The position numbers and the translations under genes are program-made. This document shows, piece by piece, positions 4,150-64,000 of a stretch of 64,000 nucleotides of DNA. The DNA is from Flectobacillus major DSM 103 (GTDB lineage: Bacteria; Bacteroidota; Bacteroidia; Cytophagales; Spirosomataceae): positions 2,277,001 through 2,341,000 of the forward strand of contig NZ_KE386491.1 in assembly GCF_000427405.1 (NCBI RefSeq), read 5' to 3'. How positions within the stretch are numbered: the stretch's first letter is position 1; every line of letters starts with the position of its first letter. The notes beneath the pieces were generated by a model, which was given only the letters and a program-made list of their open reading frames with translations, was not told the origin of the DNA and did not search any database.

Positions 4150-4756
4150 ACATCAAATAAGGTTATCTAAAAACACTTTGTACGGATGCTCTTCTTTAGA
4201 AAAGTCCTGTTTTATAAAGGCAAAAAGAGGTTGAAACTACTTTATTTTGCTTCGACAAACGATTATTCTTTAGTTATTGCCTGAGTCATTTCTCCTCTTT
4301 CCAAGACTTACACACACTTCTATTCTTTACCAAAAACATATTTAAAACCATATTTTTCACGATTAACATGAAAATTCAAACATATACAATAATAACCCAA
4401 ACAGATATTTGTTTTTTTACAGAAAAAATCCCTACTTACAAGTAAAGAAAGCTTTTGAGTTAAGACCTTGGTTAACTCTAAAAAGGTATTTATCAGCATG
4501 AACTATTCTGTTTTTTTCTTGAAAAAATCAGTAAAACATTACACCTTTATTAGCTGTTTTTATCTCATCCTTACCGCTATATCAACTTAAACTATACAAA
4601 ATTTGCTCATAGTCAGCCAACACAGCCTCCCAAAGCTTAGAAGGATTGATGTTCAAGTTTTGCCATTATATGAGTCGGCATTGATGACTCTAGTTGCTTG
4701 TGTCTTTTTTAATAGTCCTATAATAAACGCCATTTTTATAGCTAAAAACTCACACT
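4150..4756. other. divergent intergenic region, pectinesterase / PAS kinase
   Basis: A 607-base AT-rich gap between divergent genes that must hold both promoters. On the minus strand TATGTTTG (4384-4377) is preceded by TTTG (4401-4398) with a 13-base spacer, shorter than usual for this phylum. A perfect 7-bp hairpin GAGTTAA/TTAACTC lies at 4457-4478 with an 8-base loop and could be an operator. I find no clear TAnnTTTG box for the kinase gene and no credible small ORF. Confidence 0.35.
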
Positions 4757-18000: not shown

Positions 18001-19665
18001 GGCGGTCAGGTAGCCGATATGATAAAATACCAAGCTCATAAAAAAGACCTAGAAATGCTTTTGAATATTTCGCCAAAAGTCAACCGATTTATTTTGGCAG
18101 ATCCTATTCGTTTGCGTCAAATTTTGGTCAACTTACTAGGCAATGCCGTAAAATTTACCCAAGAAGGCGAAATAGAACTAAAGGTAGAAGTACTCGAAAA
18201 CCAACCCAATCAGCTTACCTTGTTTAGGTTCTCGGTGCGTGATACGGGCGTGGGTATCGAACCCAAAAGTCAGCAAAAAATATTTGAAGCGTTTTCTCAA
18301 GAAGATGCCTCTACCACTCGTCGATTTGGTGGCACTGGCTTGGGGCTTACCATTGCCAATAAGCTTTTGGCTTTGATGAATAGCAAACTCCAATTGATTA
18401 GTTCGCCTGGCCAAGGAAGTACTTTTTATTTTGATGTAGCGTTCCATTCAGAACAGGGCGATCCTATTAGTATTGATAACACCATTTCTATAAAAAATGC
18501 CCTAATTGTCGACGATAACGACAATAACCGCCTTATTTTACAAGAAATGTTGGCCTTGAAAGATATTGAAACGGTTTCGGCAAAAAACGGGATTGATGCT
18601 CTCGAAAAACTCAAAGCTGGGCATCATTTCGATGTTATTCTGATGGATTATCACATGCCCTATTTAGATGGCATCGAAACTATCAGAAATATCAGACACA
18701 AACTAAACATTTCTCCTGAAAATCAACCGATTATATTACTCTACAGTTCGTCCGACGATGAATACGTCAACACAGCCTGTATAGAGTTACAAGTACAACA
18801 ACGCTTAGTAAAACCTATTAAAATCCAACAGATATACGAGTCTTTGGCCAAAATAGGTCAAAATTCAACGCCCCCATTAGCCATAAATTCTATTGAGGAA
18901 ATACCTATGGATACTACCAATAATTTGGACAAATCTATCAAAATACTCTTGGCCGAAGACAACCCTGTCAATATGTTATTGGCATCAACGATTTTTGGAA
19001 AAGTGGTGCCTAATGCAACGCTTTTGAAAGCTGGCAATGGTGCTGAAGCTTTAGCACTATTTAAGCAGCATCAGCCAGATATTATTTATATGGATATTCA
19101 GATGCCTGTAATGAATGGCTACGAGGCGGCAACAGCCATCAGGGCTATCGAGCAAGGTGTACGTGTACCTATTATTGCTCTTACTGCGGGTACTGTAATG
19201 GGCGAAAAAGAACGTTGTCTTGAGGCAGGAATGGACGATTATATTACCAAACCCGTATTGAAAGAAACACTCGAAAAATCGCTGGATAAATGGGTATTTC
19301 AGACCCAACAAACCATTGTACCGTTATTGCCAGAGTACAAAACCAATGAACATTTCGATTACGAGGCATTGCTCGAACGCCTCGGTAATGATGAACAACT
19401 CGTGAAGGATTTAGTTCCTTTGGCTATCAGCCAGTTTCAGCCTATGCTCAAAGACCTGAATACGCTTATTCATAACAAAGATTTTCATGCTATTAAATCT
19501 TTGGCTCATAAATTAAAAGGAACAGCCCTAACGGTAAGTTTCAATGAATTGGTAAGGTTAACCAAAAAACTTGAGGATATTGCTTTTTTTGACGAAGCCT
19601 ATATCAAAGACATTCAGCAAGCGGTTGTTGATGAATGTGAGTATTTGAGCAATACCATTAAATAA
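15088..19665 (+). CDS. hybrid sensor histidine kinase (PAS x7, HisKA, HATPase, REC, REC, Hpt)
   Basis: A 1525-residue phosphorelay in one chain, with no membrane segment. About seven PAS units fill residues 10-870 (last ones about 490-612, 620-742, 750-872). HisKA follows with FLANMSHEIRTPLNG (H902), then HATPase with N-box LLGNAVKF, D-box RDTGVGI and G-box GGTGLGLTIA. Receiver 1 (about 1136-1250) has acceptor D1187 in LMDYHMP; receiver 2 (about 1284-1400) has D1336 in YMDIQMP and the KP lysine in DYITKPV. A C-terminal Hpt domain has H1474 in LAHKLKG. The arrangement allows His-Asp-His-Asp transfer to a separate output regulator, none of which lies adjacent. Stimulus unknown. Confidence 0.93.
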   Translation: MSYLKKEFNELIKRDNRFIDLLTENTYHGLWYCNLEQPNEVWVNQAFINLLGYANDDTTELQAVWGQILQSTINSTSPNPVQSITFTQKNGITLTFVYQYFTIPEHQSTPSRALVTFHQSPNNQAISTQKAQILNSIIKDRSVYVVTTDLEGNYSFVNKYFCDIFSFKEEDILGKNALMNIIPEDHQKCIDTVALCFAQPNVSHKVILRKPNKTDDIITNYWEFSGQTDAQGNVYEILCTGFDITEKMRVQNDLSVLISNMSDILLCITPKGKISYLSDSWQRTYGYSTESTIGQSFQTFIHPNDQESFWQAVLQAVETGKPAQSIEHRICHQNGTWLWCRTALNLDPISGNIILTNHNITERKATEEKLKELALVASKTTDSIIIANAQGEITWVNSAYERMTGYTLAEAYGKKPSQLLHGPETDPKTIQRIREHIQRKESVNEIILNYTKQGVKYWLDITINPVFDLNGICTNFIAVERDITERKRDEDELRFTKEMLQQTNEVALVGGWEMNPTDKTLYWSKVTREIFEVAPDFVPHFNKSIYYYKGVSREHVINAIETGLSEGTSFDIELEIITEKGNSKWIRAIGKAELHENKCKRLYGVVQDITILKQAQEQSLQSANLLNKLSRQVPGALYLLQVNNNKEVSIPFVSEGINNIYDVSSEILKEHPEKFFERIHPDDYPIVVQSMREALIEFRKWEHEFRVILPQKGICWMRAESSPERLTDSVLWHGYLQDITKRKQNEESIIRSESKFRSLFDFTTDAAILYDVRGLIDCNPAALKLFGVANKDAVLGVKPTYFSPEYQPDGQTSEALINKTTQQVLSDGSCIFEFTHKRIDNNAEFPCEVLLNTISINGSTVVQAVIRDITLRKEVEQELLRAREQAEAASKSKSEFLANMSHEIRTPLNGVIGFTDLLMKTKLDDTQKQYMSTVFQSANSLLDIINDILDFSKIEAGKLELSPEKTDLLELGGQVADMIKYQAHKKDLEMLLNISPKVNRFILADPIRLRQILVNLLGNAVKFTQEGEIELKVEVLENQPNQLTLFRFSVRDTGVGIEPKSQQKIFEAFSQEDASTTRRFGGTGLGLTIANKLLALMNSKLQLISSPGQGSTFYFDVAFHSEQGDPISIDNTISIKNALIVDDNDNNRLILQEMLALKDIETVSAKNGIDALEKLKAGHHFDVILMDYHMPYLDGIETIRNIRHKLNISPENQPIILLYSSSDDEYVNTACIELQVQQRLVKPIKIQQIYESLAKIGQNSTPPLAINSIEEIPMDTTNNLDKSIKILLAEDNPVNMLLASTIFGKVVPNATLLKAGNGAEALALFKQHQPDIIYMDIQMPVMNGYEAATAIRAIEQGVRVPIIALTAGTVMGEKERCLEAGMDDYITKPVLKETLEKSLDKWVFQTQQTIVPLLPEYKTNEHFDYEALLERLGNDEQLVKDLVPLAISQFQPMLKDLNTLIHNKDFHAIKSLAHKLKGTALTVSFNELVRLTKKLEDIAFFDEAYIKDIQQAVVDECEYLSNTIK

Positions 19666-19678
19666 TTAGAATTGGCAA

Positions 19679-19724
19679 GAGTCGAGATTTTCAGGATTTA
19701 TTCTTATCCCAAAAATCTCGACTC
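19679..19724. terminator. bidirectional hairpin between convergent genes
   Basis: Perfect 13-bp arms GAGTCGAGATTTT (19679-19691) and AAAATCTCGACTC (19712-19724) with a 20-base loop that can pair further (GGAT/ATCC). It lies between the convergent hybrid kinase and acetoacetate-CoA ligase stops, 14 and 11 bases away. There is no clear U-tract, so efficiency is uncertain. Confidence 0.55.
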
Positions 19725-19735
19725 CTACCTGTGCG

Positions 19736-21667
19736 TCAACTAACTCTTTTCTGCATAAAAAAGCGTAAGCTTTCAGGGTTTCTTACTGCACCAATATTTA
19801 CAGATTTTTCAAAAGGTTTGCCTTGTAATAACTTTTTGACAGGTAATTCCAGTTTTTTGCCCGAAATCGTATAGGGGATTTCAGCTACTTGAATCACTTC
19901 GTCGGGTACGTGTCTTGGCGAATAAGCTTCTTTTAGGGTTTGTTTAATCTTAGCAATCGTATCGTTAGAAAGCTCAAAACCCTCCTGCAAAACTACATAC
20001 AAGGGCATATAGTCTTGGGCTTCTAAATGAATAATCAAGGAATCTTTTACAAAGTGTAATGCTTCTACGGCACGGTATATCTCGGCAGTTCCTATTCTAA
20101 TACCTCCTCGATTAAGGGTAGCATCTGAACGCCCAGAAATAATAAGGGTATTGTGTTCTGTAATTTTTACCCAGTCGCCATGTCGCCACACACCTTGATA
20201 TTCTTCAAAATAACTAGCGTTATAACGCTCAAAATTAGGGTCGTTCCAAAAGAAAATAGGCATTGAAGGTGTGGGTTTTGTAATTACCATTTCCCCTATT
20301 TGGTTATGCAAAGGCCGACCGTTTTCATCCCAAGCTTGTAAATCAACCCCCAAAGCAATACACTGGATTTCGCCTTCATAAACAGGCAACATAGGATTAC
20401 CCCCAACAAATGCCGTACAAACATCTGTTCCTCCCGAAATAGAAGCCAACCACACATCCGATTTTACATGTTGATATATCCAGTCAAAACCTTCGGGCGA
20501 CAGCGGTGAGCCAGTAGAACCAATAGAGCGTAATGCAGAAAAATCTAATATTTGATTGGGAAATATATCGGCTTTCATACAAGCATGTATAAAGGCGGCA
20601 CTTGTCCCAAAATGATGTATTGGCAAATTGGCTACCAATTCCCACAGAGTATTCATACTTGGATACCCCGGGCTACCGTCATATAATACCAAGGTTGCAC
20701 CTGTAAAAAGTACAGATACCGAAAAATTCCACATCATCCAGCCAGTTGTCGAAAACCAGAAATAGTTTTCTTTTTCTTTGACATCGTTATGAAAAAGCAA
20801 ATACTTTTTGTGTTCAAGAAGAATCCCCCCATGTCCATGTACTATAGGCTTGGGAATACCTGTTGTTCCAGATGAATACAAAATATACAAGGGATGATTA
20901 AAAACAAGAGGCTCAAACACCAAAGGTTCTGCTAAAAAACGCATGGTATCCTCCCACAAAACGGTATTTTCAACACCCTGAATATCATTGATATATGGAA
21001 TAACAATAGTAGCCTGAAGGGTTGGTAACTTCTGTATTAATTCCTCAATCACAGGTACTTTGTCAAATACCTTTCCTCCATACGAGTAGGCATTTACTGC
21101 AATCAAAACTTTAGGTTCAATTTGAGCAAAACGCTCAACAACGCTATTTGCCCCAAAGTCTGGCGAGGCACTTGACCAAATTGCCCCTATCGACGCACAA
21201 GCCAAAAAGGCCACAATAGCTTGCGGAATATTGGGAATATAAGCACAAACAGTATCGCCTTTCTGAACACCAATACTTTTTAAATAATAGGCAAAAGAAG
21301 CGGTTTGAGTAGCCAGTGTATTCCAAGAAATAGCCTGTAACGTTTCTCTTTCTGACTGAAACAGTAAAGCGGGTTGTGTGGTGGTTTGATAAGCAAAAAT
21401 ATGCTCGGCATAATTAAGTGTAATACCTTCAAACCATACCGTATGTGGCATTTTTCCCTGAATCACATGGTCAAAAACACCCTGATAATGAATTTGGCTA
21501 TAGGCCAAGAATATTTGCCAAAAAGCCTCTGGATTGTCGATAGACCATTGCCAAAGGGCTTGATAATCATCAAACATCAGTTGCTTTTCAGACGCTAAAT
21601 AATTCATAAATAGCCTTAAATTACTGTTTTCGATACATTCAAGGCTTGGATTCCATAATAATTTCAT
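19736..21667 (-). CDS. acetoacetate-CoA ligase (acetoacetyl-CoA synthetase)
   Basis: A 643-residue ANL-superfamily enzyme of the usual AacS length. The AMP-binding loop YSSGTTGIPKPIVHGHGG is at about 270-287, the adenylation motif GWMMWNF follows, GRSDATLNRGGIRIG is the hinge region, and the C-terminal lysine lies in ISGKKLELP. The N-terminal LWNPS and SPDFGANSVVERFAQIEPKVL stretches are typical of acetoacetate rather than acetate ligases. It activates acetoacetate to acetoacetyl-CoA at the expense of ATP, feeding ketone-body, leucine-breakdown or polyhydroxyalkanoate carbon into central metabolism. The amino-acid dehydrogenase gene next door suggests amino-acid catabolism. A promoter candidate lies at 21709-21742. 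Confidence 0.88.
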   Translation of the reverse strand: MKLLWNPSLECIENSNLRLFMNYLASEKQLMFDDYQALWQWSIDNPEAFWQIFLAYSQIHYQGVFDHVIQGKMPHTVWFEGITLNYAEHIFAYQTTTQPALLFQSERETLQAISWNTLATQTASFAYYLKSIGVQKGDTVCAYIPNIPQAIVAFLACASIGAIWSSASPDFGANSVVERFAQIEPKVLIAVNAYSYGGKVFDKVPVIEELIQKLPTLQATIVIPYINDIQGVENTVLWEDTMRFLAEPLVFEPLVFNHPLYILYSSGTTGIPKPIVHGHGGILLEHKKYLLFHNDVKEKENYFWFSTTGWMMWNFSVSVLFTGATLVLYDGSPGYPSMNTLWELVANLPIHHFGTSAAFIHACMKADIFPNQILDFSALRSIGSTGSPLSPEGFDWIYQHVKSDVWLASISGGTDVCTAFVGGNPMLPVYEGEIQCIALGVDLQAWDENGRPLHNQIGEMVITKPTPSMPIFFWNDPNFERYNASYFEEYQGVWRHGDWVKITEHNTLIISGRSDATLNRGGIRIGTAEIYRAVEALHFVKDSLIIHLEAQDYMPLYVVLQEGFELSNDTIAKIKQTLKEAYSPRHVPDEVIQVAEIPYTISGKKLELPVKKLLQGKPFEKSVNIGAVRNPESLRFFMQKRVS

Positions 21668-31293: not shown

Positions 31294-32526
31294 ATGCGAC
31301 ACCTACTATTACTTGTATGGTTGATATTGTTGGTGTCTTTTCAGTCACTAGCCCAGCTTTCGTATAAGCAAGGTATTTCGACGATTGGTATAAAACCTTC
31401 AGCCTCTTTGGTTACATTGGGTTTTCCGCAATCTATTCGCTCGGTCGATGGCTATGGGCAGCAGCCTATGGCGAATTTCCCTTATCCTTTTTTTTCGCTT
31501 CCTGCCAATTTTCGGGTCAATAAACAGGGGTCTACCGAAGTTTATGGGCTAGTAGGCTCGTTTGATTTGGGCGTTAATTATAGCAAGCTTCTCAAAAACA
31601 ATCATATTTTCAAAGCAGAAATAGGGATTCATTATTCGCAATCACCGCATAGCTATTCGCTCGATAGCCCCTATCAGTTTTTTATCAAAAACAAACAAGC
31701 GGCCTCTTGGCATAATACCATCGCTACAACGGGCTACTCGGTTGGTATAATGTACACATCGGCCTCGAAAGGTCGGCGGGGTTTGGGCGAAATGCGCAAC
31801 TACATAGAACTAGGGGCTAGAACGCTCAATTTATATAGCAAGTCGGCCAAAGACAATGATAGTTGGGTTTTTAACGGACAAGGGTTTAGTATTGAAAGCC
31901 ATATCACACAGCCCAAAAGTAATATGATTACGCTTGAACTAGGCAAAACCTTTTGGCGACCAGCCGACGATATGCGGTCGTTGTCGTTTGGTATCAGAAT
32001 TGGGATTCCGTTCGATAAAATGGTTGAAAATACCATTATTGGCTACCAAGGGAATAATCCTACTGGTGCAAATATTATTACCGAAGATGTTGGCTACCTT
32101 GGTTTTCAAATGAGTTATAACTTACCGATAAAGCAAATTTCACGCCCAATCAGAGAACACAAAACCCAAAGGCAATTTTGTGATATGCAACGCGAGGTAT
32201 TGGTAAAAAAACAATTTGTAGTTCATTCGTTGGTATTACCGCTAGAATTATTTGACCACGAAAATGAAGATGGAGATATTGTTTCGGTATGTTTTAATGG
32301 GAAATATATTTTAGAAAAACATCTATTAACCAACAAGCCTAAGCTACTAGATATTTCTTTGGAAAGCGATAGCAAGAATATTCTGACCATTTTTGCCAAC
32401 AATACAGGCAAAGAAGGAGCAAATACCACTGCTTTAAGGTTCAAAATCAATGACAAAGTAGAACAGATTATTTTGTATGCCGACAAGAAATCATCAGAAG
32501 CAATAGAGTTTGTTTACATTCCCTAA
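31294..32526 (+). CDS. secreted/outer-membrane protein of unknown function
   Basis: A 410-residue protein with a Sec signal peptide (residues 1-20, ends SLAQ). Residues about 25-285 alternate polar and aromatic residues in the manner of an outer-membrane beta-barrel (repeated glycine/aromatic strand ends, IELGARTLN, MITLELGKTFW). Residues about 305-410 form a separate beta domain with FDHENEDGDIVSVCFNG and NTTALRFKINDK; similar DGD-x-V-x-L/V-x-x-N-G domains recur in secreted Cytophagales proteins of unknown role (family knowledge). The gene follows ruvC by 96 bases. I cannot assign a function. Confidence 0.7.
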   Translation: MRHLLLLVWLILLVSFQSLAQLSYKQGISTIGIKPSASLVTLGFPQSIRSVDGYGQQPMANFPYPFFSLPANFRVNKQGSTEVYGLVGSFDLGVNYSKLLKNNHIFKAEIGIHYSQSPHSYSLDSPYQFFIKNKQAASWHNTIATTGYSVGIMYTSASKGRRGLGEMRNYIELGARTLNLYSKSAKDNDSWVFNGQGFSIESHITQPKSNMITLELGKTFWRPADDMRSLSFGIRIGIPFDKMVENTIIGYQGNNPTGANIITEDVGYLGFQMSYNLPIKQISRPIREHKTQRQFCDMQREVLVKKQFVVHSLVLPLELFDHENEDGDIVSVCFNGKYILEKHLLTNKPKLLDISLESDSKNILTIFANNTGKEGANTTALRFKINDKVEQIILYADKKSSEAIEFVYIP

Positions 32527-32545
32527 AATGCCTTTACCCACTTTT

Positions 32546-32604
32546 ACACATACTTACACAAAATCCCAGTCATTTTCTTTGTGCAATTTCGTGTAAGTAT
32601 GTGT
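32546..32604. terminator. 14-bp perfect inverted repeat between convergent genes
   Basis: ACACATACTTACAC (32546-32559) and GTGTAAGTATGTGT (32591-32604) pair perfectly around a 31-base loop. The element ends 6 bases from the stop of the DUF255 gene and starts 20 bases after the preceding stop. It is likely a bidirectional terminator or RNA-stabilising hairpin; a U-tract is missing. Confidence 0.5.
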
Positions 32605-32610
32605 CTACTA

Positions 32611-34590
32611 TTAGCCCAAAATTTGTAGCCAAGCTTCCTCTACTGTTTGTACAGGCAGCTTACAAGTTTTGTTATAGCAAACGTAAATATTGGTTTGTTC
32701 TGACAATGCTACGCGGTTTTCTAGTAAAGGTAAATCACTTTTGAGTTTTGTACCTGACAACACTTTATTAGGATAATAGCGTTCTTCTAGCTTTGCCCGC
32801 ACTTTGAGGCAATTCACCCCTACAATTGCTATTTCGGCTGTTGGAGTTACCATTTGCGTAGCCAAACAAGCCCAATTAGATAAGTAATCGGCATTTTTGA
32901 ATACCAAGCTCTTTACCTTTGCCAGCATCAGATAAGCTATATCTACAAAATCCTGTCTATCCAAAATCAACCCTAGTGTATATAAATTACGAGCCATCAT
33001 TGAATTAGAACTTGGAATAACGTTGTCAAAAAGCTCTTTTTTACGAGCAATCAAAGCCTCGGCATTTTGGTCGGTAAAGAAAAATAATTCATCTTCTTCA
33101 TCCCAAAAATTCTGGTACACATAAATCATAAGTTTTTCGGCAATATGTAACCACTTTTCATCAAAAGTTACCTGATACAAACTGGTATAGGCATCTATAA
33201 CGGCTGCATAGTCTTCTAAAAATCCTTGTATTTTGGCTTCACCATTTTTGTAAGAATGCCATAACTGGCTATCCAACAACATTTTGTCTTTAATAAAATG
33301 AGCATTTTTTAGGGCTAATACCAAGAAGTCTTCTTCTCCAAAAACACGATACGCATCTACCAACCCTTTGAGAGCCAAGCCATTCCATGAGCAGAGGATT
33401 TTATCATCGAGCCCTGGGCGAATTCTCTGTTCACGTGCTGCTAGTAATTTGGCATTTTGTTCCTTGAAATCGGAATTCAGAAAAGTGTGATTTTTCCAAA
33501 GAATATTTACCCCATGCTCCCAATTGCCTGTATCTGTAACCTGATATGCACGGCAATATTGTACCGAATCAGCCCCAAGAATAGCATCAATTTCGGCCTT
33601 AGTCCATACATAATATTTACCCTCTTCGCCTTCTGAGTCGGCATCTAAAGCTGAATAAAATCCGCCTTCTGGACTTGTCATTTCTCGGGATAGCCACCCG
33701 ATTGTTTCGTATACAGTTTGCTGATAAATAGGCAATTGTGTAAGTAAATATGCTTCGGCATAAACACTCAACAATTGGCCATTGTCATATAGCATTTTTT
33801 CAAAATGCGGACAAAACCATTCACCATCTACCGAGTATCGGGCAAAGCCACCACCTATCTGGTCGTAAATGCCCCCCATGGTAATCTTATTGAGCGTAAG
33901 CGTAAGGTGTTCTAAGGCTTTTTCTTTGGCACTAGGATTGTCATGAATATAACGCATCAAAAATAACCAAATAGAAGGCATCGGAAACTTGGGTGAACGC
34001 TCAAAACCTCCCCAAGTGGGGTCGAAAGAATGAGCTAATTTTTGGTACATAATATCCAATTCTTCACTTTCAAAAGCTGGACTTTCGGCTACCAAACCAT
34101 ATTTTTCTGTTTCTAAAGAAATCATATTACTGGTAAACCCCTCTGCCGACTTCTGAATATCGGGCAAGTGATTCTGAAACCCTTCACTTACAGCGTATAA
34201 AAGACGTTTCCAGTTTTGAGGAGGAAAATATGTTCCTCCATAAAAAGGCTTTCCGTCGGGCATCAAAAATACATTTAAAGGCCAGCCACCATTCACTCCC
34301 ATTGCTTGAACGGCATCCATATAAATGGCATCTACATCGGGGCGTTCTTCTCTATCTACCTTAATATTGACAAAATGTTCGTTCATGATTTGAGCCAACT
34401 CTTCATTTTCAAAACTCTCACGCTCCATTACATGGCACCAATGACACGCCGAATAGCCAATACTTACTAAAATAGGCTTATTTTCAGCCCGAGCTTTACT
34501 AAATGCCTCTTGTCCCCAAGCATACCAATCCACTGGATTATGAGCATGCTGAAGCAGGTACGGAGAGGTTTCCTTTCCTAAATGATTCAT
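32611..34590 (-). CDS. DUF255 thioredoxin-domain protein (YyaL/SSP411 type)
   Basis: A 659-residue protein. The N-terminal thioredoxin-like domain has the signature NPVDWYAW and the redox motif ACHWCHVM (C49, C52), then [23 protein letters not shown] in pieces typical of the family. The rest (about 190-640) is an alpha/alpha barrel resembling N-acylglucosamine 2-epimerase or glycosidase folds, with [17 protein letters not shown] and [10 protein letters not shown]. There is no signal peptide, so it is cytoplasmic. The true activity of the family is unknown. Length is normal. Confidence 0.9.
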
Positions 34591-46790: not shown

Positions 46791-47189
46791 ATGAAAAATA
46801 TAGTCAAATTGAGTATGTTATGCTGTTTGCTATATCTGACTTTTGGTTTTAAAAGCCCGCAAATACCCCAAGGTCATTCTACCCAAATGATGGTAGATTC
46901 GGCAAAGGGTATCGACCCCGAAACAGGCTTAATCATTGCCAAAGAACTAGATATGGTAAAAGCTCAGTGTACAGGTTGCCATTCAAGCAAAATGATTACC
47001 CAATTTAGAGCAACACGTGAAGGTTGGCTAGAACGGATTCGTTGGATGCAAAAAACCCAAAAACTATGGGATTTGGGCGAAGCCGAACCTATTGTATTAG
47101 ACTATCTTGCAAAATACTATGGCCCTAGCAAACAGTATCAACGTCGAGCTCCACTAAAAGATATTCAGTGGTACAAACTTGATAAATGA
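46791..47189 (+). CDS. small monohaem c-type cytochrome, SorB-like partner
   Basis: A 132-residue exported protein: signal peptide (residues 1-21), then one haem c site CTGCH (C60, C63, H64) in VKAQCTGCHSSKMIT. A following WMQ segment could provide the methionine ligand. It begins 12 bases after the sulfite dehydrogenase stop and belongs to the same operon, so it probably accepts electrons from the molybdenum enzyme and passes them to the respiratory chain. The hairpin at 47204-47254 marks the end of the unit. Confidence 0.85.
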   Translation: MKNIVKLSMLCCLLYLTFGFKSPQIPQGHSTQMMVDSAKGIDPETGLIIAKELDMVKAQCTGCHSSKMITQFRATREGWLERIRWMQKTQKLWDLGEAEPIVLDYLAKYYGPSKQYQRRAPLKDIQWYKLDK

Positions 47190-47203
47190 TGTACAGCTAT
47201 CAG

Positions 47204-47254
47204 CCAATGATTGTAGGATTTTGTCAATCGCTTTTCAAATCTTACAATCATTGG
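47204..47254. terminator. bidirectional 18-bp hairpin between convergent genes
   Basis: The arms at 47204-47221 and 47237-47254 (start CCAATGATTGTA, end TACAATCATTGG) pair over 18 positions with one mismatch around a 15-base loop. It lies between the cytochrome stop and the pabB stop. The strongest simple hairpin in this part of the window. Confidence 0.6.
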
Positions 47255-47278
47255 TTATTTATACAACCTCTACTCTAA

Positions 47279-48274
47279 TTATTTTGGCAGGTATACCTTA
47301 TCTATCATTTCTTGATATTCTGATCTGGCATTGGCAAAAATGGTAATTCCCCCACCGCTTTTAAATACCTTGCCATGGGGTGTTTCTTCAATAAACCGAA
47401 TCATGACGGCACTATCCAAATTTTGTCCATCAAATAGGCCAAATACCCCTGTATAATAGCCCCGTTCGTATCCTTCGGCAGCTTTGATAATCTCTTGGGT
47501 TTGAGGCTTGGGAGCTCCAGTAATAGAACCCGCAGGTAGCATTTTGAAAAATAAAGTACCCAATTGTTCATAATAATTGATAGGGAGTTTACCACAAATT
47601 TCTGAACTAACTTGTAATAATTCTCCTTCATGTGTAGCGACTTTGTCGATATACCGAAACCTTTCAACCCAAACTTTTTCGGCTATCATACTAATATCAT
47701 TTCTGATTAAATCTACAATTGTAGCATGCTCGGCCAGTTCTTTTTTATCTTTCAAAATAAGCTCTTCGGCATCGGGTATTTGTGCCGAAATAGTACCCTT
47801 CATAGGGTGCGAAGAAATAATGCCATGATTGATTTGTACAAAAGTTTCTGGAGAAAAAAGCACAAAGTCGTCTTTGAAAAGCAACTGATATTTAGAGGTA
47901 TTTCTCGCAAAAATCTGAGCTAAAGTAAGGTTTACCGAAATAGGCGTTGGCTTGGTTAAATTGACCAAAAAGCTATCGCCCCTTTGCAAATGTTGATGTA
48001 CTTTATCAAACGATTGCTGGTACTCATCCAACGAAATAGGATATTTATCTAGCTGTATATCAACCGCTTCACTCTTATTAAAATCAAAATTAGTTACATC
48101 TCCTATTTTGAAATAAATTCCAGTATTCGCAACTTCGGTCAGTGGTAAAATAACGGGTTTTTGCATTTCATAATCAATCACAAACAAAAACGGAGTACGA
48201 GATTGTCCTAATTGATTCATCTTGTCAATGGCTAGTAAGGCAGCCGAAGGAAGTATTTGTTTTTTGTAATTCAT
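47279..48274 (-). CDS. pabB: aminodeoxychorismate synthase component I
   Basis: A 331-residue chorismate-binding enzyme. Family signatures are GDSFLVNLTKPTP, SPETFVQI, the PabB-type lysine motif HPMKGTIS (TrpE has alanine there), DLIRNDIS, MLPAGSITGAPKP and FKSGGGITIFA. The lysine motif favours 4-amino-4-deoxychorismate synthesis for folate over anthranilate. It is shorter than E. coli PabB because the N-terminal lobe is reduced, which is usual in this phylum. No pabA or pabC gene is adjacent. Confidence 0.85.
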   Translation of the reverse strand: MNYKKQILPSAALLAIDKMNQLGQSRTPFLFVIDYEMQKPVILPLTEVANTGIYFKIGDVTNFDFNKSEAVDIQLDKYPISLDEYQQSFDKVHQHLQRGDSFLVNLTKPTPISVNLTLAQIFARNTSKYQLLFKDDFVLFSPETFVQINHGIISSHPMKGTISAQIPDAEELILKDKKELAEHATIVDLIRNDISMIAEKVWVERFRYIDKVATHEGELLQVSSEICGKLPINYYEQLGTLFFKMLPAGSITGAPKPQTQEIIKAAEGYERGYYTGVFGLFDGQNLDSAVMIRFIEETPHGKVFKSGGGITIFANARSEYQEMIDKVYLPK

Positions 48275-57178: not shown

Positions 57179-57874
57179 ATGATTATTTTCATTGATGACC
57201 GACCTGTCAAAGTTATAGGTCAAAATAAGGCAAAATCTCTGACCACAACAGAGTTTGACCATTTGATTGATGCAAAACTAGAAGCTATACGCCCTGAAAA
57301 ATTACATGGCCATGTTCTAATTTTGAATGTATTATTACCAACCATTAATAGACTTTTTTCTATTCTAAAAGAGCATGACTTACCTCATTTTCAATCTATT
57401 ACGCTTGTTACCGCCGATAGGGATATTACAGAAGAGCAAATCAAAAACCAGTATAAGGTAATTAAAGCCGCTGGTGGGGTGGTTCGCAACGAAAAAGGAC
57501 AAGTATTGATGATGTACCGTTTGAAAAAATGGGATTTGCCAAAAGGGAAATTAGATAAAGGCGAAAAAGCCAAAGCTGGGGCTGTCAGAGAAGTAGAAGA
57601 AGAATGTAATGTAAAAGTAAAGCTCGAAGAAAAAATCTGTACTACTTTTCATACTTATACTTACAAAAACGAGCATATTCTTAAACAAACAAAGTGGTAC
57701 TCGATGGAATTAATCGATGATTCTAAAATGAGTCCACAAATAGAAGAAGATATTGAAAAATTAGAATGGATGGACCGAAAGCAAATCCATACTGCTTTGA
57801 TTAACTCGTATTCGTCGATTAGGTATGTAGTAAAAAGATATTTCTATGAAGGCGAAGACCGATGGGATATTTAA
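57179..57874 (+). CDS. Nudix hydrolase with N-terminal extension
   Basis: A 231-residue protein. About 90 N-terminal residues (MIIFIDDRPVKVIGQNKAKS and on) form a small unassigned domain; the Nudix domain follows with GGVVRNEKGQVLMMYRLKKW and the complete box GKLDKGEKAKAGAVREVEEE. LPKGKLDKGE resembles diadenosine-polyphosphate or diphosphoinositol-type hydrolases, but the substrate cannot be fixed. It is followed at once by a strong hairpin terminator. Confidence 0.85.
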   Translation: MIIFIDDRPVKVIGQNKAKSLTTTEFDHLIDAKLEAIRPEKLHGHVLILNVLLPTINRLFSILKEHDLPHFQSITLVTADRDITEEQIKNQYKVIKAAGGVVRNEKGQVLMMYRLKKWDLPKGKLDKGEKAKAGAVREVEEECNVKVKLEEKICTTFHTYTYKNEHILKQTKWYSMELIDDSKMSPQIEEDIEKLEWMDRKQIHTALINSYSSIRYVVKRYFYEGEDRWDI

Positions 57875-57910
57875 TAACTATGTAGGGTTACACCCGAAAG
57901 TTTATTTTAC

Positions 57911-57956
57911 CATGAAAAAGGCGTTCGAACAACTAGCGTCGAACGCCTTTTTCATG
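57911..57956. terminator. perfect 18-bp hairpin shared by converging genes (cassette copy A)
   Basis: Arms CATGAAAAAGGCGTTCGA (57911-57928) and its exact complement (57939-57956) with a 10-base loop; the stem contains A/T runs on both sides, so it can terminate in both directions. It ends the Nudix transcript and, from the other side, the metY transcript. Its right part is near-identical to the hairpin region at 61256-61291, with about 88 percent identity over 80 bases by eye. Confidence 0.7.
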
Positions 57957-57975
57957 AATAGTCCCTAAATTTCTA

Positions 57976-58050
57976 TTAGTTGAGCAATTGTAAGTCTCTT
58001 CGATGTTCTTTTGACAACCTTATAAAAATAGGGGGTGACTCATGTTTTAT
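57976..58050 (-). pseudogene. decayed copy of the 35-codon ORF, 3' of metY
   Basis: On the minus strand this stretch aligns with the intact ORF at 61315-61422. It keeps the words GGTTGTCAA and CAATTGCTCAAC, but the start codon position reads ATA, about 30 bases are missing in the middle, and one base is lost before the CAATTG word, shifting the frame. It begins 15 bases after the metY stop and is followed by the hairpin at 57911-57956, the same order as the intact copy. Confidence 0.5.
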
Positions 58051-58065
58051 GGAATATTACTTTTG

Positions 58066-59373
<1,308 letters not shown>

Positions 59374-59443
59374 TTATTATGGTATTGTTTCTATATCAAC
59401 CTTTTCAGGTCTTTGATTATTGTTTGTAAAGCTATTGTATAAA

Positions 59444-59475
59444 CAAAAATACTCATTCCTTTTTTATTCTACAAA
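59444..59475 (-). promoter_or_regulatory. well-formed promoter for metY
   Basis: On the minus strand TTTG (59475-59472), 20 bases, then TATTTTTG (59451-59444). Both elements and the spacing fit the Bacteroidota consensus. Start near 59437 gives a leader of about 85 bases. This is the best promoter match in the window. Confidence 0.55.
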
Positions 59476-59479
59476 AACT

Positions 59480-59518
59480 ATAGATTAAATATCTTGTTTT
59501 GATAAATATTTAATCTAT
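59480..59518. promoter_or_regulatory. perfect 13-bp palindrome, candidate operator for metY/araC
   Basis: ATAGATTAAATAT (59480-59492) and ATATTTAATCTAT (59506-59518) are exact complements around a 13-base spacer. The element ends 5 bases upstream of the metY -33 box and lies between divergent metY and the AraC-type gene. The position suits an activator or repressor site; the spacing of half-sites (26 bases centre to centre) is about 2.5 helical turns. Confidence 0.5.
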
Positions 59519-59724
59519 CCAATAGTGCTGAAATACTATTTTGGGGCAATCGGTAATTATTACCATTGATAGTCGGTTTTGCACCATACTTACTTCCTTT
59601 TTCTGCTATACCTTTGGCATATCAAACAAATCTTAATTGTTGTACTTAAGCTTTTGAAATACTCAGTAGTTTGATTAGTAGATTTTTGAATACAACAACT
59701 CATACATTGTTCAATTACTTAAAT

Positions 59725-60603
59725 ATGTCTGTTACCAAACCTAATATTCCCCTTGTTGATATTTGCACTTTGTCGGAACACAAGGAAGATGATTTTTTGG
59801 TGAGTCGTTTTGGGAGCTATCTGGCCAAGCACAAAAACTTGCATTTGGCACACCGTCATAGCTTTTATCATTTGGTATTTTTTACACAAGGTGCTGGCTT
59901 TCATACAATTGACTTTAGCCAGTTTGAGGTAAAACCTTATCAGATTTATTTCATGATTCCGGGGCAGGTACATAGCTGGAGTTTTGAGGGGCCAATAGAT
60001 GGCTATGTGGTCAACTTTTCTCCTGCTTTTTTTCAGTCATTTTTGCTACGCCCTGACTATTTAGACGCATTTTCTTTTTTCAATAATATTGTACAAGACA
60101 GTGTTATCAATCTTGAGTTTCCACTTAACCAAAAGATAAAAGGGCTTTTTGAGGAAATCATTGAACATAATACCACAAATGATACTTTTCAGTGGGACAT
60201 TATAAGGGCTTTGTTGTTACAAATGTTTATTCTGATTGACCAGAAAAACCTTGCTCAAAAACCCCAGAATATCCCTGCTTATAATTACACTTTACTAAAA
60301 AATTTCCAGAAGCTGATAGAAAAACATCATACTACGTTAAAGCTCCCTATGGAATATGCTGATTTGCTGTACATTACACCCAATCACCTCAATGCACTCT
60401 GCAAAGAGCACCTTGGAATGCAAGCAGGGGAAGTCATCAGAAATAGGATTATTCTGGAAGCAAAAAGACTTTTGATTAATAAGAATACCAGTATTTCGGA
60501 AATAGCCTATTTGCTAAATTTTAAGGACAACTCGTATTTCTCTAAGTTTTTCAAAAAACAGGTAGGTATTACCCCCGAAGAGTTTAGGAAAAAAGTTCAT
60601 TAG
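59725..60603 (+). CDS. AraC family transcriptional regulator
   Basis: About 292 residues from ATG 59725 (MSVTKPNIPLVDICTL); a TTG-led extension to 59671 is unlikely. The N-terminal cupin sensor has LAHRHSFYHLVFFTQGAGFH and MIPGQVHSWSF; the C-terminal pair of helix-turn-helix motifs runs from about 195 (MEYADLLYITPNHLNALCKE) to SISEIAYLLNFKDNSYFSKF and FKKQVGITPEEFRKK. The cupin suggests a small-molecule effector. It faces metY across a palindrome, so metY or its own gene may be targets (inference). Confidence 0.9.
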   Translation: MSVTKPNIPLVDICTLSEHKEDDFLVSRFGSYLAKHKNLHLAHRHSFYHLVFFTQGAGFHTIDFSQFEVKPYQIYFMIPGQVHSWSFEGPIDGYVVNFSPAFFQSFLLRPDYLDAFSFFNNIVQDSVINLEFPLNQKIKGLFEEIIEHNTTNDTFQWDIIRALLLQMFILIDQKNLAQKPQNIPAYNYTLLKNFQKLIEKHHTTLKLPMEYADLLYITPNHLNALCKEHLGMQAGEVIRNRIILEAKRLLINKNTSISEIAYLLNFKDNSYFSKFFKKQVGITPEEFRKKVH

Positions 60604-60753
60604 TAAGTGAATAGAAAAGATTGACGAGTCAATGAAATAAAACCGTTGAAAGCGTTTTTTATCTTGAATATATCAATCATTATTTCTGTAACCCGGTAAT
60701 TAATAATTTGTTATCAATATATTTTAGTAGTAATACAAATAAATTTCAAGCTC

Positions 60754-61173
60754 ATGGATTCATATAATAATATTCGTTTTGATGGAGAACGTTCTCGTTT
60801 ACAGGCTATTGCCGAGTTACGTTGCCCGCAATGTCGTCAGGGAAAGATGTTTAAATATTCTAACTGGCGTATCGACAAGTTTGATGATATGCACAAAAAT
60901 TGTCCCGTGTGTAATTTACATTTTGAAGTAGAGCCGGGCTTTTGGTATGGTGCTATGTTTGTGAGTTATGGCTTTTCAATCCTTATATTATTGGTATTAG
61001 GACTTACCATTTACTGGGGTTTTGGCGACCCATCTATTTGGGGTTATATTATTCCTATTCCGATTGTTTCGTTGCTAGCTGTGCCTTTCAACTTTAGGAT
61101 GTCGAGAAGTGTGTTTTTGCATTTATTTGGCTTTGTCAAGTACAAACCCGAGTTAGGAAAGGTAGTATTATAA
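60754..61173 (+). CDS. DUF983 zinc-ribbon membrane protein
   Basis: A 139-residue protein. Two CPxC knuckles, RCPQCRQG (about 23-30) and NCPVCNLHF (about 49-57), form a zinc ribbon; then EPGFWYGAMFVSYGFS and two membrane helices (about 68-90 and 97-115). This is the DUF983 family, found widely in Bacteroidota and Alphaproteobacteria; the function is unknown. The gene stands alone between the AraC gene and a converging GH2 gene. Confidence 0.85.
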   Translation: MDSYNNIRFDGERSRLQAIAELRCPQCRQGKMFKYSNWRIDKFDDMHKNCPVCNLHFEVEPGFWYGAMFVSYGFSILILLVLGLTIYWGFGDPSIWGYIIPIPIVSLLAVPFNFRMSRSVFLHLFGFVKYKPELGKVVL

Positions 61174-61255
61174 GCAAACGTGAGTTATCCCAACTTGAGT
61201 GTTAGCGATACAATTCTTTATGGCTAAAGATATGCCATTCAGATATTTAACATAT

Positions 61256-61291
61256 AAAAGGCGTTCAAAATTAGTTTTTCGAACGCCTTTT
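61256..61291. terminator. hairpin of cassette copy B
   Basis: AAAAGGCGTTC (61256-61266) pairs with GAACGCCTTTT (61281-61291) around a 14-base loop. A/T runs flank the GC part on both sides, so it can end transcripts from either direction. It lies 23 bases beyond the stop of the 35-codon ORF and shares sequence with the hairpin at 57911-57956. Confidence 0.6.
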
Positions 61292-61314
61292 CATGAATAG
61301 CTACTAAATTTCTA

Positions 61315-61422
61315 TCAGTTGAGCAATTGATAAGCCTCTTCAATATTCACTTGACAACCTGATGAATCCCTACAAATAGGTGGTCTATTACTACCTAAAA
61401 TTCGGGATGACTCATATTTCAT
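61315..61422 (-). CDS. 35-residue small ORF behind the GH2 gene (intact cassette copy B)
   Basis: ATG (61422-61420) to TGA (61317-61315) on the minus strand. The peptide starts MKYESSRILGSNRPPIC and ends GCQVNIEEAYQLLN; it has two cysteines (C17, C23) separated by RDSSG. It starts 34 bases after the GH2 stop and ends 23 bases before a terminator hairpin, so it would ride on the GH2 transcript. A decayed copy with the same order of parts lies behind metY. The composition looks protein-like, but translation is unproven and I know no family. Confidence 0.4.
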   Translation of the reverse strand: MKYESSRILGSNRPPICRDSSGCQVNIEEAYQLLN

Positions 61423-61456
61423 TGTGGGCATTGAGATACGCTTTTTTGAAGCCCTA

Positions 61457-64000
61457 TTATTTACTGATTTCGATATATTGCAAAGGATAATTCCAGCCCT
61501 CTACCGATACCTGAGTTTGGGTTTGGGTTGGCTTATAATCTAATATTACCGTTTTTTCAGCTCCAGCAACTACCGATATATAGTTGTTGTCATAAAAAAC
61601 GGGCAAGATACGTTCTTTTGTTGCGGCATCTACCAGAGAAATTCGGTTGAAAAATGCAACAGGATTGTTACTTGGATTACGTAGTGTCACTTGAATTTTT
61701 CCTACACCTATTTGTTTGGCCGATATTGTCAATTTATTGGCCGTAGGTAACTTTTGCAAGCCAGCATAAACGCCCTTGCTATTAGGATACCAATAAAAAT
61801 TATCACTAACCACTTGTTGTTTTTCATCGAGTAATTGTAACGATAAAAATGACCCATCTTCTGCTCCCATTTCATCCAAAATATTTTTTACAGATAAAAT
61901 TTTCTTGACAGAACTTGCTTCTATATAAGTAAATACTTGTGTAATAAGCTTTTCTTCACCTTTCATGTTATAGGCTTTGGCCACCAACATCAAGTTGCGA
62001 TGAGCCTTGAAGTCGTTGTTGACCATCATGAGCATTCCATCTATTGGATTAGCCATAATATGTACCAATTCGCTACCATTTCTTAAACCATACAAACAGG
62101 CATTGGGGTCGAGGTAATAATCGTACATCTGGCCACGCATAGCTGTCCATGGGTTTTGGGTTTTCCAGATAATAACACCCGTGTACCAATCCCAAATATG
62201 AGCACTAAAGCCCTCAATTAAGCCCCGATACTGGTCGTAATTGACCAACTGAGCCTTCAACCCAAAATCTTTAATATCTTTTGGTTTGCCATAAGGGTCT
62301 ATAAAATCGTTGTAGCCAACGCCTGTGTAAGTATGGTATGTCCATACGCTATCGGGTTTTGTTTGAGCATCGGCGTATGGAACTTTCATGTTTTCTTTTG
62401 GAATAAAACGCCTCAACGATTCATAGTCGCCTGTACCTACCGAACCCACTTCGGAGTTGAAAGGAAAAGTACGTTGTTCCCAAAAAACTTTTAGAGGCTG
62501 AATACCATAAGGGCCATCACCATTGCCACCTAATGAATTGTACGACATGGCATCGGAATTAGAATAATCTACAAACCAGCGAGTTCCATCAAGTTTTGGA
62601 AGAATTTCATCTCTGAGTGGTACTAAAATATCTTCGGGAGGTGTAATTTCATTGCCTCCGCACCACATAGCCAACGACGCATGATTTCGTACCATTTTAA
62701 TCATATCGGCAGCCGACTCTAAGAATAATGGGTGATTGTCGGGGTACTGACGACGTGTCCATTGGTCTTCTTTTTTCATCGGGTCTATCCAACGGCCATT
62801 GCAGTCACCTGACATCCAAAAATCTTGAAAAACCAATAAGCCATAGCGGTCGCAGGCCTCATAAAACTCTGGACGCTCTACCAATGCTCCGCCCCAGATC
62901 CTGATCAAATTGAGGTTCATATCACGATGAAATCTAATTTCGGCATCATAGCGTTCATCCGAAAAACGTAACATTGCATCCGAGATAATCCAGTTACCTC
63001 CCTTTATAAACACCTTTTGGCCATTGACATATACCTGACGGCTTTGTGTTGTACTATTCCAATCGGTCTGAATTTCACGTACGCCAACTTTTACTGTTTC
63101 TTGGTCGGAAAGTCCTTTTCCTTGTTCAAAAAACTCAAATTTGGTAGTATATAGCTCTTGTTTTCCATAACCTGCTGGCCACCATAATTTTGGATTTTTC
63201 AGTGTATAGTCCGACAAAGCTACTGTGGTTGTGGTATGCGGAGCTAGGCTTACATGGGCCGAAACCTTCTGGCCATCGATTGAATAAACCAATGTACCTT
63301 CAATTTTTTTATCCGAAGTATTTTCTAGGTCGGCAGTAGCTTTTATAATCGCTGGTTTTTGTACACCTTCGGGGGTTCTTTTCTCAGGAACAAGCGTTAT
63401 AATGTGCGGGTCTTTTAGGTTAACCTTTCCCGTTTTTTCGATATATACTTTGTCCCAGATACCTGTATTTCTATCACGAATTGGGCGAATCCAGTCCCAG
63501 CCAGCAGTATATTGAATAGATACGTTTTTGGCAATAGTACCATCGCCACCTTGTCCTCCATTCGGATTACCAACAGTAGTTGGCGGATATACCACTACAG
63601 CAAGGCGATTGTTGCCGTCTTTTGCCAACAATTTGGTAATATTGAATGCCCGACGAAGAAACATTCCCTCAAAAGGTTTTTCATTAACCTTTTTACCATT
63701 CAAATAAATATCGCAACTGTAGTTGATACCTCTAAATTTTAACCAAATGGTCTGCCCTTCGACTGCTGAAGTTTCTTTGAAATCTTTTACAAACCAATAA
63801 GTATAATACTCACGCCCTATGTGATAAATATCAGGGATTTTTTCGTTATTCAAGCCATAAAAAGGGTCTGGTATTTCTTTGTTGGCCAGCATAGTTGTAA
63901 GCACCGTACCGGGTACAACCGCAGGTTTCCAAGTATTCAGCGAAAAGTTGGGGCTAGAAATAGCCTGCCCATTTTCTTTGATATTTTTGATAGGAGCACA
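61457..64000 (-). CDS. glycoside hydrolase family 2 enzyme, 5' end beyond window
   Basis: The frame is open to the right edge (64000), so the signal peptide and first residues are missing; 848 codons are visible including the stop. VPGTVLTTMLANKEIPDP and YGLNNEKIPDI start the sugar-binding domain, RDRNTGIWDKVYIE ends it, then an immunoglobulin-like domain and the TIM barrel with acid/base MWCGGNEITPPED and nucleophile PFNSEVGSVGTGDYE. The pattern fits exo-beta-glucosaminidase or endo-beta-mannosidase-type GH2 enzymes rather than beta-galactosidase. Probably secreted or periplasmic; substrate not settled. A small ORF and terminator follow it. Confidence 0.85.
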   Translation of the reverse strand, partial: CAPIKNIKENGQAISSPNFSLNTWKPAVVPGTVLTTMLANKEIPDPFYGLNNEKIPDIYHIGREYYTYWFVKDFKETSAVEGQTIWLKFRGINYSCDIYLNGKKVNEKPFEGMFLRRAFNITKLLAKDGNNRLAVVVYPPTTVGNPNGGQGGDGTIAKNVSIQYTAGWDWIRPIRDRNTGIWDKVYIEKTGKVNLKDPHIITLVPEKRTPEGVQKPAIIKATADLENTSDKKIEGTLVYSIDGQKVSAHVSLAPHTTTTVALSDYTLKNPKLWWPAGYGKQELYTTKFEFFEQGKGLSDQETVKVGVREIQTDWNSTTQSRQVYVNGQKVFIKGGNWIISDAMLRFSDERYDAEIRFHRDMNLNLIRIWGGALVERPEFYEACDRYGLLVFQDFWMSGDCNGRWIDPMKKEDQWTRRQYPDNHPLFLESAADMIKMVRNHASLAMWCGGNEITPPEDILVPLRDEILPKLDGTRWFVDYSNSDAMSYNSLGGNGDGPYGIQPLKVFWEQRTFPFNSEVGSVGTGDYESLRRFIPKENMKVPYADAQTKPDSVWTYHTYTGVGYNDFIDPYGKPKDIKDFGLKAQLVNYDQYRGLIEGFSAHIWDWYTGVIIWKTQNPWTAMRGQMYDYYLDPNACLYGLRNGSELVHIMANPIDGMLMMVNNDFKAHRNLMLVAKAYNMKGEEKLITQVFTYIEASSVKKILSVKNILDEMGAEDGSFLSLQLLDEKQQVVSDNFYWYPNSKGVYAGLQKLPTANKLTISAKQIGVGKIQVTLRNPSNNPVAFFNRISLVDAATKERILPVFYDNNYISVVAGAEKTVILDYKPTQTQTQVSVEGWNYPLQYIEISK

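Follow-up and report, generated by a model that had tools for sequence, protein, structure and literature searches.

A hairpin-bearing MITE family at convergent gene ends in Flectobacillus, with replacement of native terminator-like hairpins

Two related stretches are copies of a MITE

A short unit with a hairpin recurs behind two genes, GH2 and metY, in a 64,000-nucleotide stretch of DNA from a Flectobacillus-group genome (the window), raising the question of what the unit is and how it came to lie at gene ends. An earlier note on this DNA had described a duplicated cassette made of a 35-codon open reading frame (ORF) and a hairpin. The stretches at 61 kb and 57.9-58.0 kb are indeed akin, far above chance level, with 80.6% blastn identity over 124 columns (57906-58026; E 4e-24). 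From the hairpin to the end of the ORF we counted 67 identical columns out of 80, end gaps excluded, so that the similarity noted earlier stands while its by-eye count of about 72 of 82 does not. The ORF (61422-61315, minus strand), the hairpin at 61291-61256 and the related stretch with its hairpin at 57956-57911 all lie where they had been placed. The limit of the unit had been set at the hairpin, and the element extends beyond it.

Each of the two stretches is a copy of a MITE, a non-autonomous transposable element with terminal inverted repeats (TIRs) of about 20 bp and an internal hairpin. The complete copy, of 238 bp (61179-61416, minus strand), is delimited by its TIR pair and a profile hit (E 4.6e-73), and by gene ends and gene families it fills the gap of a convergent pair, DUF983 (stop at 61173) and GH2 (stop at 61457). 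Its TIR on the GH2 side (61397-61416, minus strand) has 1 mismatch to CATGAGTCATCCCGAATTTT, with TTT just outside (61417-61419, plus strand); the TIR on the DUF983 side (61179-61198, plus strand) has 6 mismatches, with AAA just outside (61176-61178, plus strand). The internal hairpin (61256-61291), a probable bidirectional terminator by prediction, lies in a segment (61246-61301) that folds as RNA at -21.2 kcal/mol on the minus strand and -16.5 kcal/mol on the plus strand. The second copy (57906-58044, minus strand), between convergent NUDIX (stop at 57874) and metY (stop at 58066), is truncated: it retains the hairpin and one TIR (58025-58044, minus strand, 3 mismatches), and the other end is gone. 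Its hairpin (57911-57956) has a stem score of 18, and the segment 57901-57966 folds at -30.1 (minus) and -28.2 (plus) kcal/mol.

The supposed two-copy duplication is in fact a large family. A DNA search of the genome to which the window belongs (6.22 Mb in 7 contigs) returned 162 first-look candidates, of which 40 were scored; all 40 match, the window copy among them. We aligned 41 copies together with their flanks, 39 from fetched loci plus both window copies. The alignment revealed a unit bounded by inverted repeats with a consensus near CATGAGTCATCCCGAATTTT, preceded by AAA and followed by TTT; its interior holds a hairpin, AAAAGGCGTTCGAAA...TTTCGAACGCCTTTT, and a core that is asymmetric. 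With up to 3 mismatches allowed in its 22 positions, the TIR word was found 97 times across the genome, and its reversed control 0 times. Several subfamilies share the TIR and have different interiors, with paired TIRs 113-368 bp apart (script pairings, a few of them doubtful, such as that at L014). At least 81 places were located in this genome (79 loci and the two in the window). The family is thus short, non-coding, TIR-bounded and dispersed in many copies, and its TIRs are common to an autonomous element. The earlier suggestions of a small mobile element and of a module that moves at gene 3' ends were broadly correct: the unit is a MITE whose partner element encodes a transposase, its copies sit at gene 3' ends, and the search for further copies that had been proposed as a check found many both here and in relatives.

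Some loci are composite. At L086, L065, L071 and L093 a MITE end abuts sequence typically found behind the internal hairpin of another subfamily, as though the hairpins of MITEs also served as targets. A candidate autonomous element of 1465 bp in the window's genome (L060, 1501-2965) was rejected, since it consists of two separate MITEs, 1465 bp apart, that enclose two small host genes. The arrangement resembles a composite transposon; the enclosed genes, recognised by eye, are presumably carbonic-anhydrase-like and HIT-like.

A partner IS carries the transposase

The same 20-bp TIR, mostly with 0-1 mismatches, bounds an autonomous insertion sequence (IS) of 1.44-1.47 kb (1.50 kb in one distant copy). 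Its transposase gene has about 446 codons if intact; two copies in G001 are shortened or broken. By their titles, records of the IS come from Flectobacillus longus, Flectobacillus sp., Emticicia agri, Spirosoma, Saprospiraceae, Lewinella, Phaeodactylibacter and Flavilitoribacter, and further from one Bacteroidota MAG and one record titled Cellulophaga. In the record titled Cellulophaga sp. BC115SP (L151) the IS is present at 93% identity; this is probably genome G002, of the window's genus, since both have matches near base 5955, and the title looks misnamed.

Searching 222 genomes of the family, we found the TIR in 48, spread over 12 of 36 genera, with controls at 0. The transposase protein had a match in 8 of 17 hand-picked genomes, and protein searches of the window genome and of G004, from the same genus, found none. 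Genome G077 has 50 and 53 TIR matches on its two strands and no transposase match by protein search; there too, as far as these searches go, the MITEs have outlived the IS that was their partner.

The transposase matches Pfam DDE_Tnp_1 at E 5.5e-6, above that model's cut-off; its best NCBIfam hits are IS4 models, below their curated cut-offs, and it matches the Tn5 transposase at E about 1e-4. By eye it contains a candidate YREK-like motif. No IS1182 model appeared among NCBIfam and Pfam matches at E<=10, in a search that had no positive control and a library that may lack the model. On these matches, and as part of the joint explanation given below, the MITE family is probably moved by a DDE transposase of IS4/Tn5-like type, absent from the window's genome.

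Conservation of the internal hairpin

The arms of the hairpin are the best preserved part of the element. Across the 41 copies they diverge from the consensus by 3.4% and their surroundings by 10-15%, whereas the loop reaches 26% and the TIRs 16-18%. Broken pairs amount to 17 of 527 cells in the arms versus 172 of 566 in the TIRs (151 of 528 once a TIR pair mismatched in the consensus is dropped), and changes private to a single copy are depleted in the arms (6/1060 versus 192/9784; p 4e-4). Among 75 MITE pairings from nine genomes, the internal stem score is at least 11 in 69, and 68 beat all 20 of their shuffles. The stems themselves vary among subfamilies and genomes, with complementarity kept.

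Such a hairpin might serve the element itself, for example through cruciform formation in transposition, and bring the host no gain. Its presence in most pairings though the host genes differ would fit this, and so would the capacity of DNA repair to keep palindromes paired. The loop occurs in both orientations, in 17 and 14 of the 41 copies; a crude text pattern left the other 10 unclassified. Since flipped loops and compensated changes suggest DNA events templated by the hairpin, the pairing is by itself no proof of selection. The stem nevertheless survives where one or both TIRs are gone, as in the window at 57911-57956 and in the comparison of G001 (L106) with G002 (L107), where L106 has no TIR findable at 6 mismatches. 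Private changes are also depleted in the arms, and palindrome repair alone should preserve pairing without lowering per-site divergence. The lowered arm divergence, in copies that are related and were found by one query, is therefore a better argument for selection than pairing, and we consider a role confined to the element unlikely, if the most serious of the alternatives. The conservation of the arms suggests instead that hosts use the hairpins as terminators, a predicted function, and from it we infer host selection for the hairpin. A separate orthologous pair (G001_C15 junction 41 and G002_C13 junction 50) carries another long palindrome whose loop, by eye, is inverted between the two genomes.

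Genomic location

Location was scored with hexamer-based gene calls made in this analysis. Of 79 loci in the window's genome (39 from the DNA search and 40 further TIR hits, the two window copies excluded), 56 are convergent and 23 tandem, with 0 divergent and 0 inside genes, whereas the other junctions of the same loci comprise 13 convergent, 155 tandem and 47 divergent (n=215; Fisher p 6e-29). These loci were picked for having a copy; hence we ran a second test on about 750 kb of contiguous stretches from five genomes, around orthologues of window genes. There the TIR was found at 15 of 94 junctions between convergent genes, 2 of 367 between tandem genes and 1 of 96 between divergent genes (p 5e-10), or 15/94 convergent versus 3/463 others when pooled, in stretches that were not blind, as the window came with two copies and TIR hits on some contigs were already known. 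The p values of this analysis are too small, because the copies are related and were collected by their similarity to a single query.

For complete elements between convergent genes (39 cases), the element lies a median of 17.5 bp from the stop codon, with a leftover gap of 41 bp. MITEs elsewhere are likewise mostly convergent: 7 of 9 in G005 (from 11 loci, 2 of which lack a complete element), 3 of 4 in G077 and 2 of 2 in G175. The IS is less strictly so, with 5 convergent, 8 tandem and 1 divergent copies in G182 (n=14), and 4 convergent, 2 tandem and 1 perhaps inside a gene among the named IS loci (7 measured of 8 given).

Seven of the window's 41 junctions are convergent: two hold MITEs, three hold native hairpins (stem score 13-16), one is an overlap and one a 765-bp gap. 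The three native junctions (19665-19736, 32526-32611 and 47189-47279) carry long near-perfect hairpins of unrelated sequence, which are probably bidirectional terminators, by prediction. Most convergent junctions of the sister stretches likewise carry long hairpins.

A convergent bias could also arise if an ordinary MITE inserted anywhere and survived only behind genes, purifying selection alone producing the bias and the hairpin being incidental. Gene-downstream regions do tolerate insertions, no copy among the 79 is divergent or inside a gene, and in pneumococcus BOX, RUP, SPRITE and IS elements too are over-represented between convergent genes, according to the accessible text of PMC3049150. 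Random insertion would not predict, however, that filled sites, wherever they can be aligned, lack the native hairpin, nor that two IS copies duplicate a hairpin, as set out below; the arms are, moreover, more conserved than the remainder of the element. We regard random insertion as improbable, and consider hairpin-targeted insertion the better account of the location.

Replacement and duplication of native hairpins

The target duplication that is usual, if not universal, for MITEs is absent here. At 2-12 bp there was no clear excess of duplications, in a set with few IS; none appeared in a longest-common-substring test; and a junction repeat of 10-120 bp was found in 0 of 78 elements (75 MITE pairings and 3 IS). 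Members of the IS4 family make a fixed target duplication of several bp, which this IS does not show. Among 21 IS copies, 19 have no direct repeat at 10-120 bp and two duplicate a whole hairpin. Both of these are in G182: at L198 perfect direct repeats of 51/51 bp (2914-2964 and 4405-4455), and at L199 perfect direct repeats of 25/25 bp (2886-2910 and 4351-4375), each repeat being a whole hairpin.

Comparison of filled with empty sites revealed a different outcome. At the DUF983/GH2 junction, the empty site of G002 reads GAATCCTCAAA[hairpin top]TTTGAGGATTC, with the same hairpin and small changes in G001, and the filled site of G003 reads GAATCCTCAAA[MITE]TTTGAGGGTTC. At a second junction, G002 is empty, TAAA[whole hairpin]TTTATAATTTGC, and G001 is filled, TAAA[MITE, both ends]TTTATAATTTGC. 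In both pairs the exchange falls between AAA and TTT: the MITE replaces a native terminator-like hairpin. Replacement rests on these two pairs, of which the first has a deduced left boundary, the left TIR of the G003 copy being largely lost, and the second is not polarised as to direction. Similarly, an IS in G182 occupies a site where all 10 sister junctions read (of 12) show a terminator-like hairpin by eye. Replacement of a stem-loop without target duplication was thus found at two filled/empty pairs and one IS site, and would be the usual outcome of insertion.

We also scored inverted arms around the 78 elements, rerunning the score with shifts after a rigid register had given a weak signal. 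The excess is modest, 9 versus 4.5 at 6 bp or more (p 0.03); at 8 bp or more there are 4 of 78 versus 0.4 expected, a value reached by 0 of 300 shuffles, and two of these four lie farther out or are A/T-rich. Most insertions have no inverted arms, and the window copies show none. The comparisons of window junction 37 and of L020, L030, L045 and L074 involve flanks too divergent for a verdict, and G001_C15 junction 14 retains a hairpin next to the MITE. For the G182 insertions L203 and L195, a search for empty sites yielded no alignable junction. Some junctions have different MITEs in the two genomes compared; one of them, convergent, carries different MITE copies with unlike flanks in the window's genome (L034) and in G003 (L110), perhaps reflecting repeated hits on one terminator.

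A model of insertion

Together these results suggest how the element may come to lie where it does. The transposase would join the two ends of the element to short AAA sites that flank a DNA hairpin, in a presumed order of strand joining. Hairpins seem to mark gene 3' ends in these genomes, so insertions would fall shortly downstream of stop codons and chiefly between convergent genes. Insertion would have two outcomes: either the native hairpin flanked by the AAA and TTT feet is lost and the element left in its place, or the whole hairpin is duplicated, with one copy on each side. With the strong and symmetric hairpin that the MITE brings, the gene pair would probably still have a bidirectional terminator, and after insertion the TIRs would decay while the hairpin remained paired.

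The window hairpins have a strong stem with A/T tails and fold as RNA on both strands (z -5 to -8). A simple terminator scan flagged neither of them, because the T run is paired within the stem. Given the position of the hairpin, its symmetry and the loss of the native one, a bidirectional terminator is its likeliest role, and we predict that the internal hairpin of the MITE probably acts as one. We assign a probability of roughly 0.8 to the joint explanation: a MITE mobilised by an IS4/Tn5-like transposase, insertion targeted to hairpins, replacement or duplication of the native hairpin, and retention of the MITE's hairpin as a probable terminator.

The open reading frame

The 35-codon ORF (61315-61422, minus strand) is accidental. 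It starts in host DNA outside the element, and its first six bases in the window copy are the host DNA that precedes the element. Of 41 aligned copies, 4 have the homologous frame open and 1, the window copy, combines an ATG with an open frame; a Pfam search of the 35-aa peptide gave no match. An Rfam covariance-model search gave no match at the gathering threshold in the window and none at E<=1 in 57700-61700, on which a known RNA family was rejected, as was a conserved small protein on the counts of open frames and the Pfam result. The earlier reading of the unit as encoding a conserved small protein, or as a regulatory 3' UTR giving rise to an sRNA, draws on the intact ORF of the window copy and is, in view of these counts, the external start codon and the negative searches, highly improbable, its protein version being largely refuted.

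Implications

A broader proposal is that these elements form a mobile terminator system, in which an IS4-like transposase hunts terminator hairpins and the MITEs are exchangeable terminators that supplant native ones, end a sizeable share of Flectobacillus convergent gene pairs and are kept by host selection after loss of the transposase from the window's genome. We hold this tentatively, at slightly under even odds. If true, stem-loop-replacing transposition would extend beyond staphylococcal IS1272 and TnSha1 to another transposase lineage and another phylum, and both proposed outcomes, hairpin replacement and hairpin duplication, would occur within one IS family. It would exemplify the turnover of transcription terminators by transposons, and it would explain how a selfish element reached at least 81 places in one genome with little harm. 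The many natural replicates bear on whether terminators are under selection and on how hairpins stay paired.

Comparison with known systems

In the open-access literature, as far as its text was available, we found no description of this element, no MITE that swaps terminators for its own hairpin, and no such mechanism outside IS1182; ISfinder and subscription journals lay outside this scope. A review describes terminator formation by MITEs as merely conceivable in its available text (PMC10969869). The element resembles MITEAba12 and other IS-derived bacterial MITEs in being short and intergenic, with many copies and TIRs shared with an IS (in the accessible parts of PMC6382973 and PMC10969869). 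According to the same portion of PMC6382973, MITEAba12 generates target duplications of 9 bp and lacks a predicted Rho-independent terminator, whereas here none of the 75 MITE pairings has a junction repeat and most have a hairpin.

SPRITE of Streptococcus pneumoniae, as described in the accessible sections of PMC3049150, has an 18-bp duplex followed by a U-rich tract, with 15 copies upstream and 15 convergent, and its authors suggest co-option as terminators. It is likewise a small repeat with a terminator-like hairpin enriched at convergent junctions, a likeness that does not imply common descent. It belongs to another phylum, and that text gives no hairpin-replacing insertion for SPRITE, whereas for the family studied here both TIRs and the partner IS are known.

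The closest parallels are IS1272 and TnSha1, of the IS1182 family in Staphylococcus, for which stem-loop-replacing transposition has been described (PMC5678879 and PMC4923244, respectively, in their accessible portions). As here, DNA hairpins are targeted and the stem-loop is deleted without target duplication; several TnSha1 targets are terminators confirmed by RNA-seq (PMC4923244). A pathway that duplicates the whole stem-loop is also proposed in PMC5678879, and the IS copies at L198 and L199 fit it. The present system differs in that its transposase matches IS4/Tn5-type models and, in the search described above, which had no positive control, no IS1182 model. Its feet are AAA and TTT, whereas the available text of PMC5678879 and PMC4923244 reports no primary sequence specificity, and its MITEs bring a replacement hairpin, of which that text describes none. 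The mechanism itself is known from IS1272 and TnSha1; new here are another transposase lineage, MITEs that carry a replacement hairpin, and the number of these MITEs at convergent junctions.
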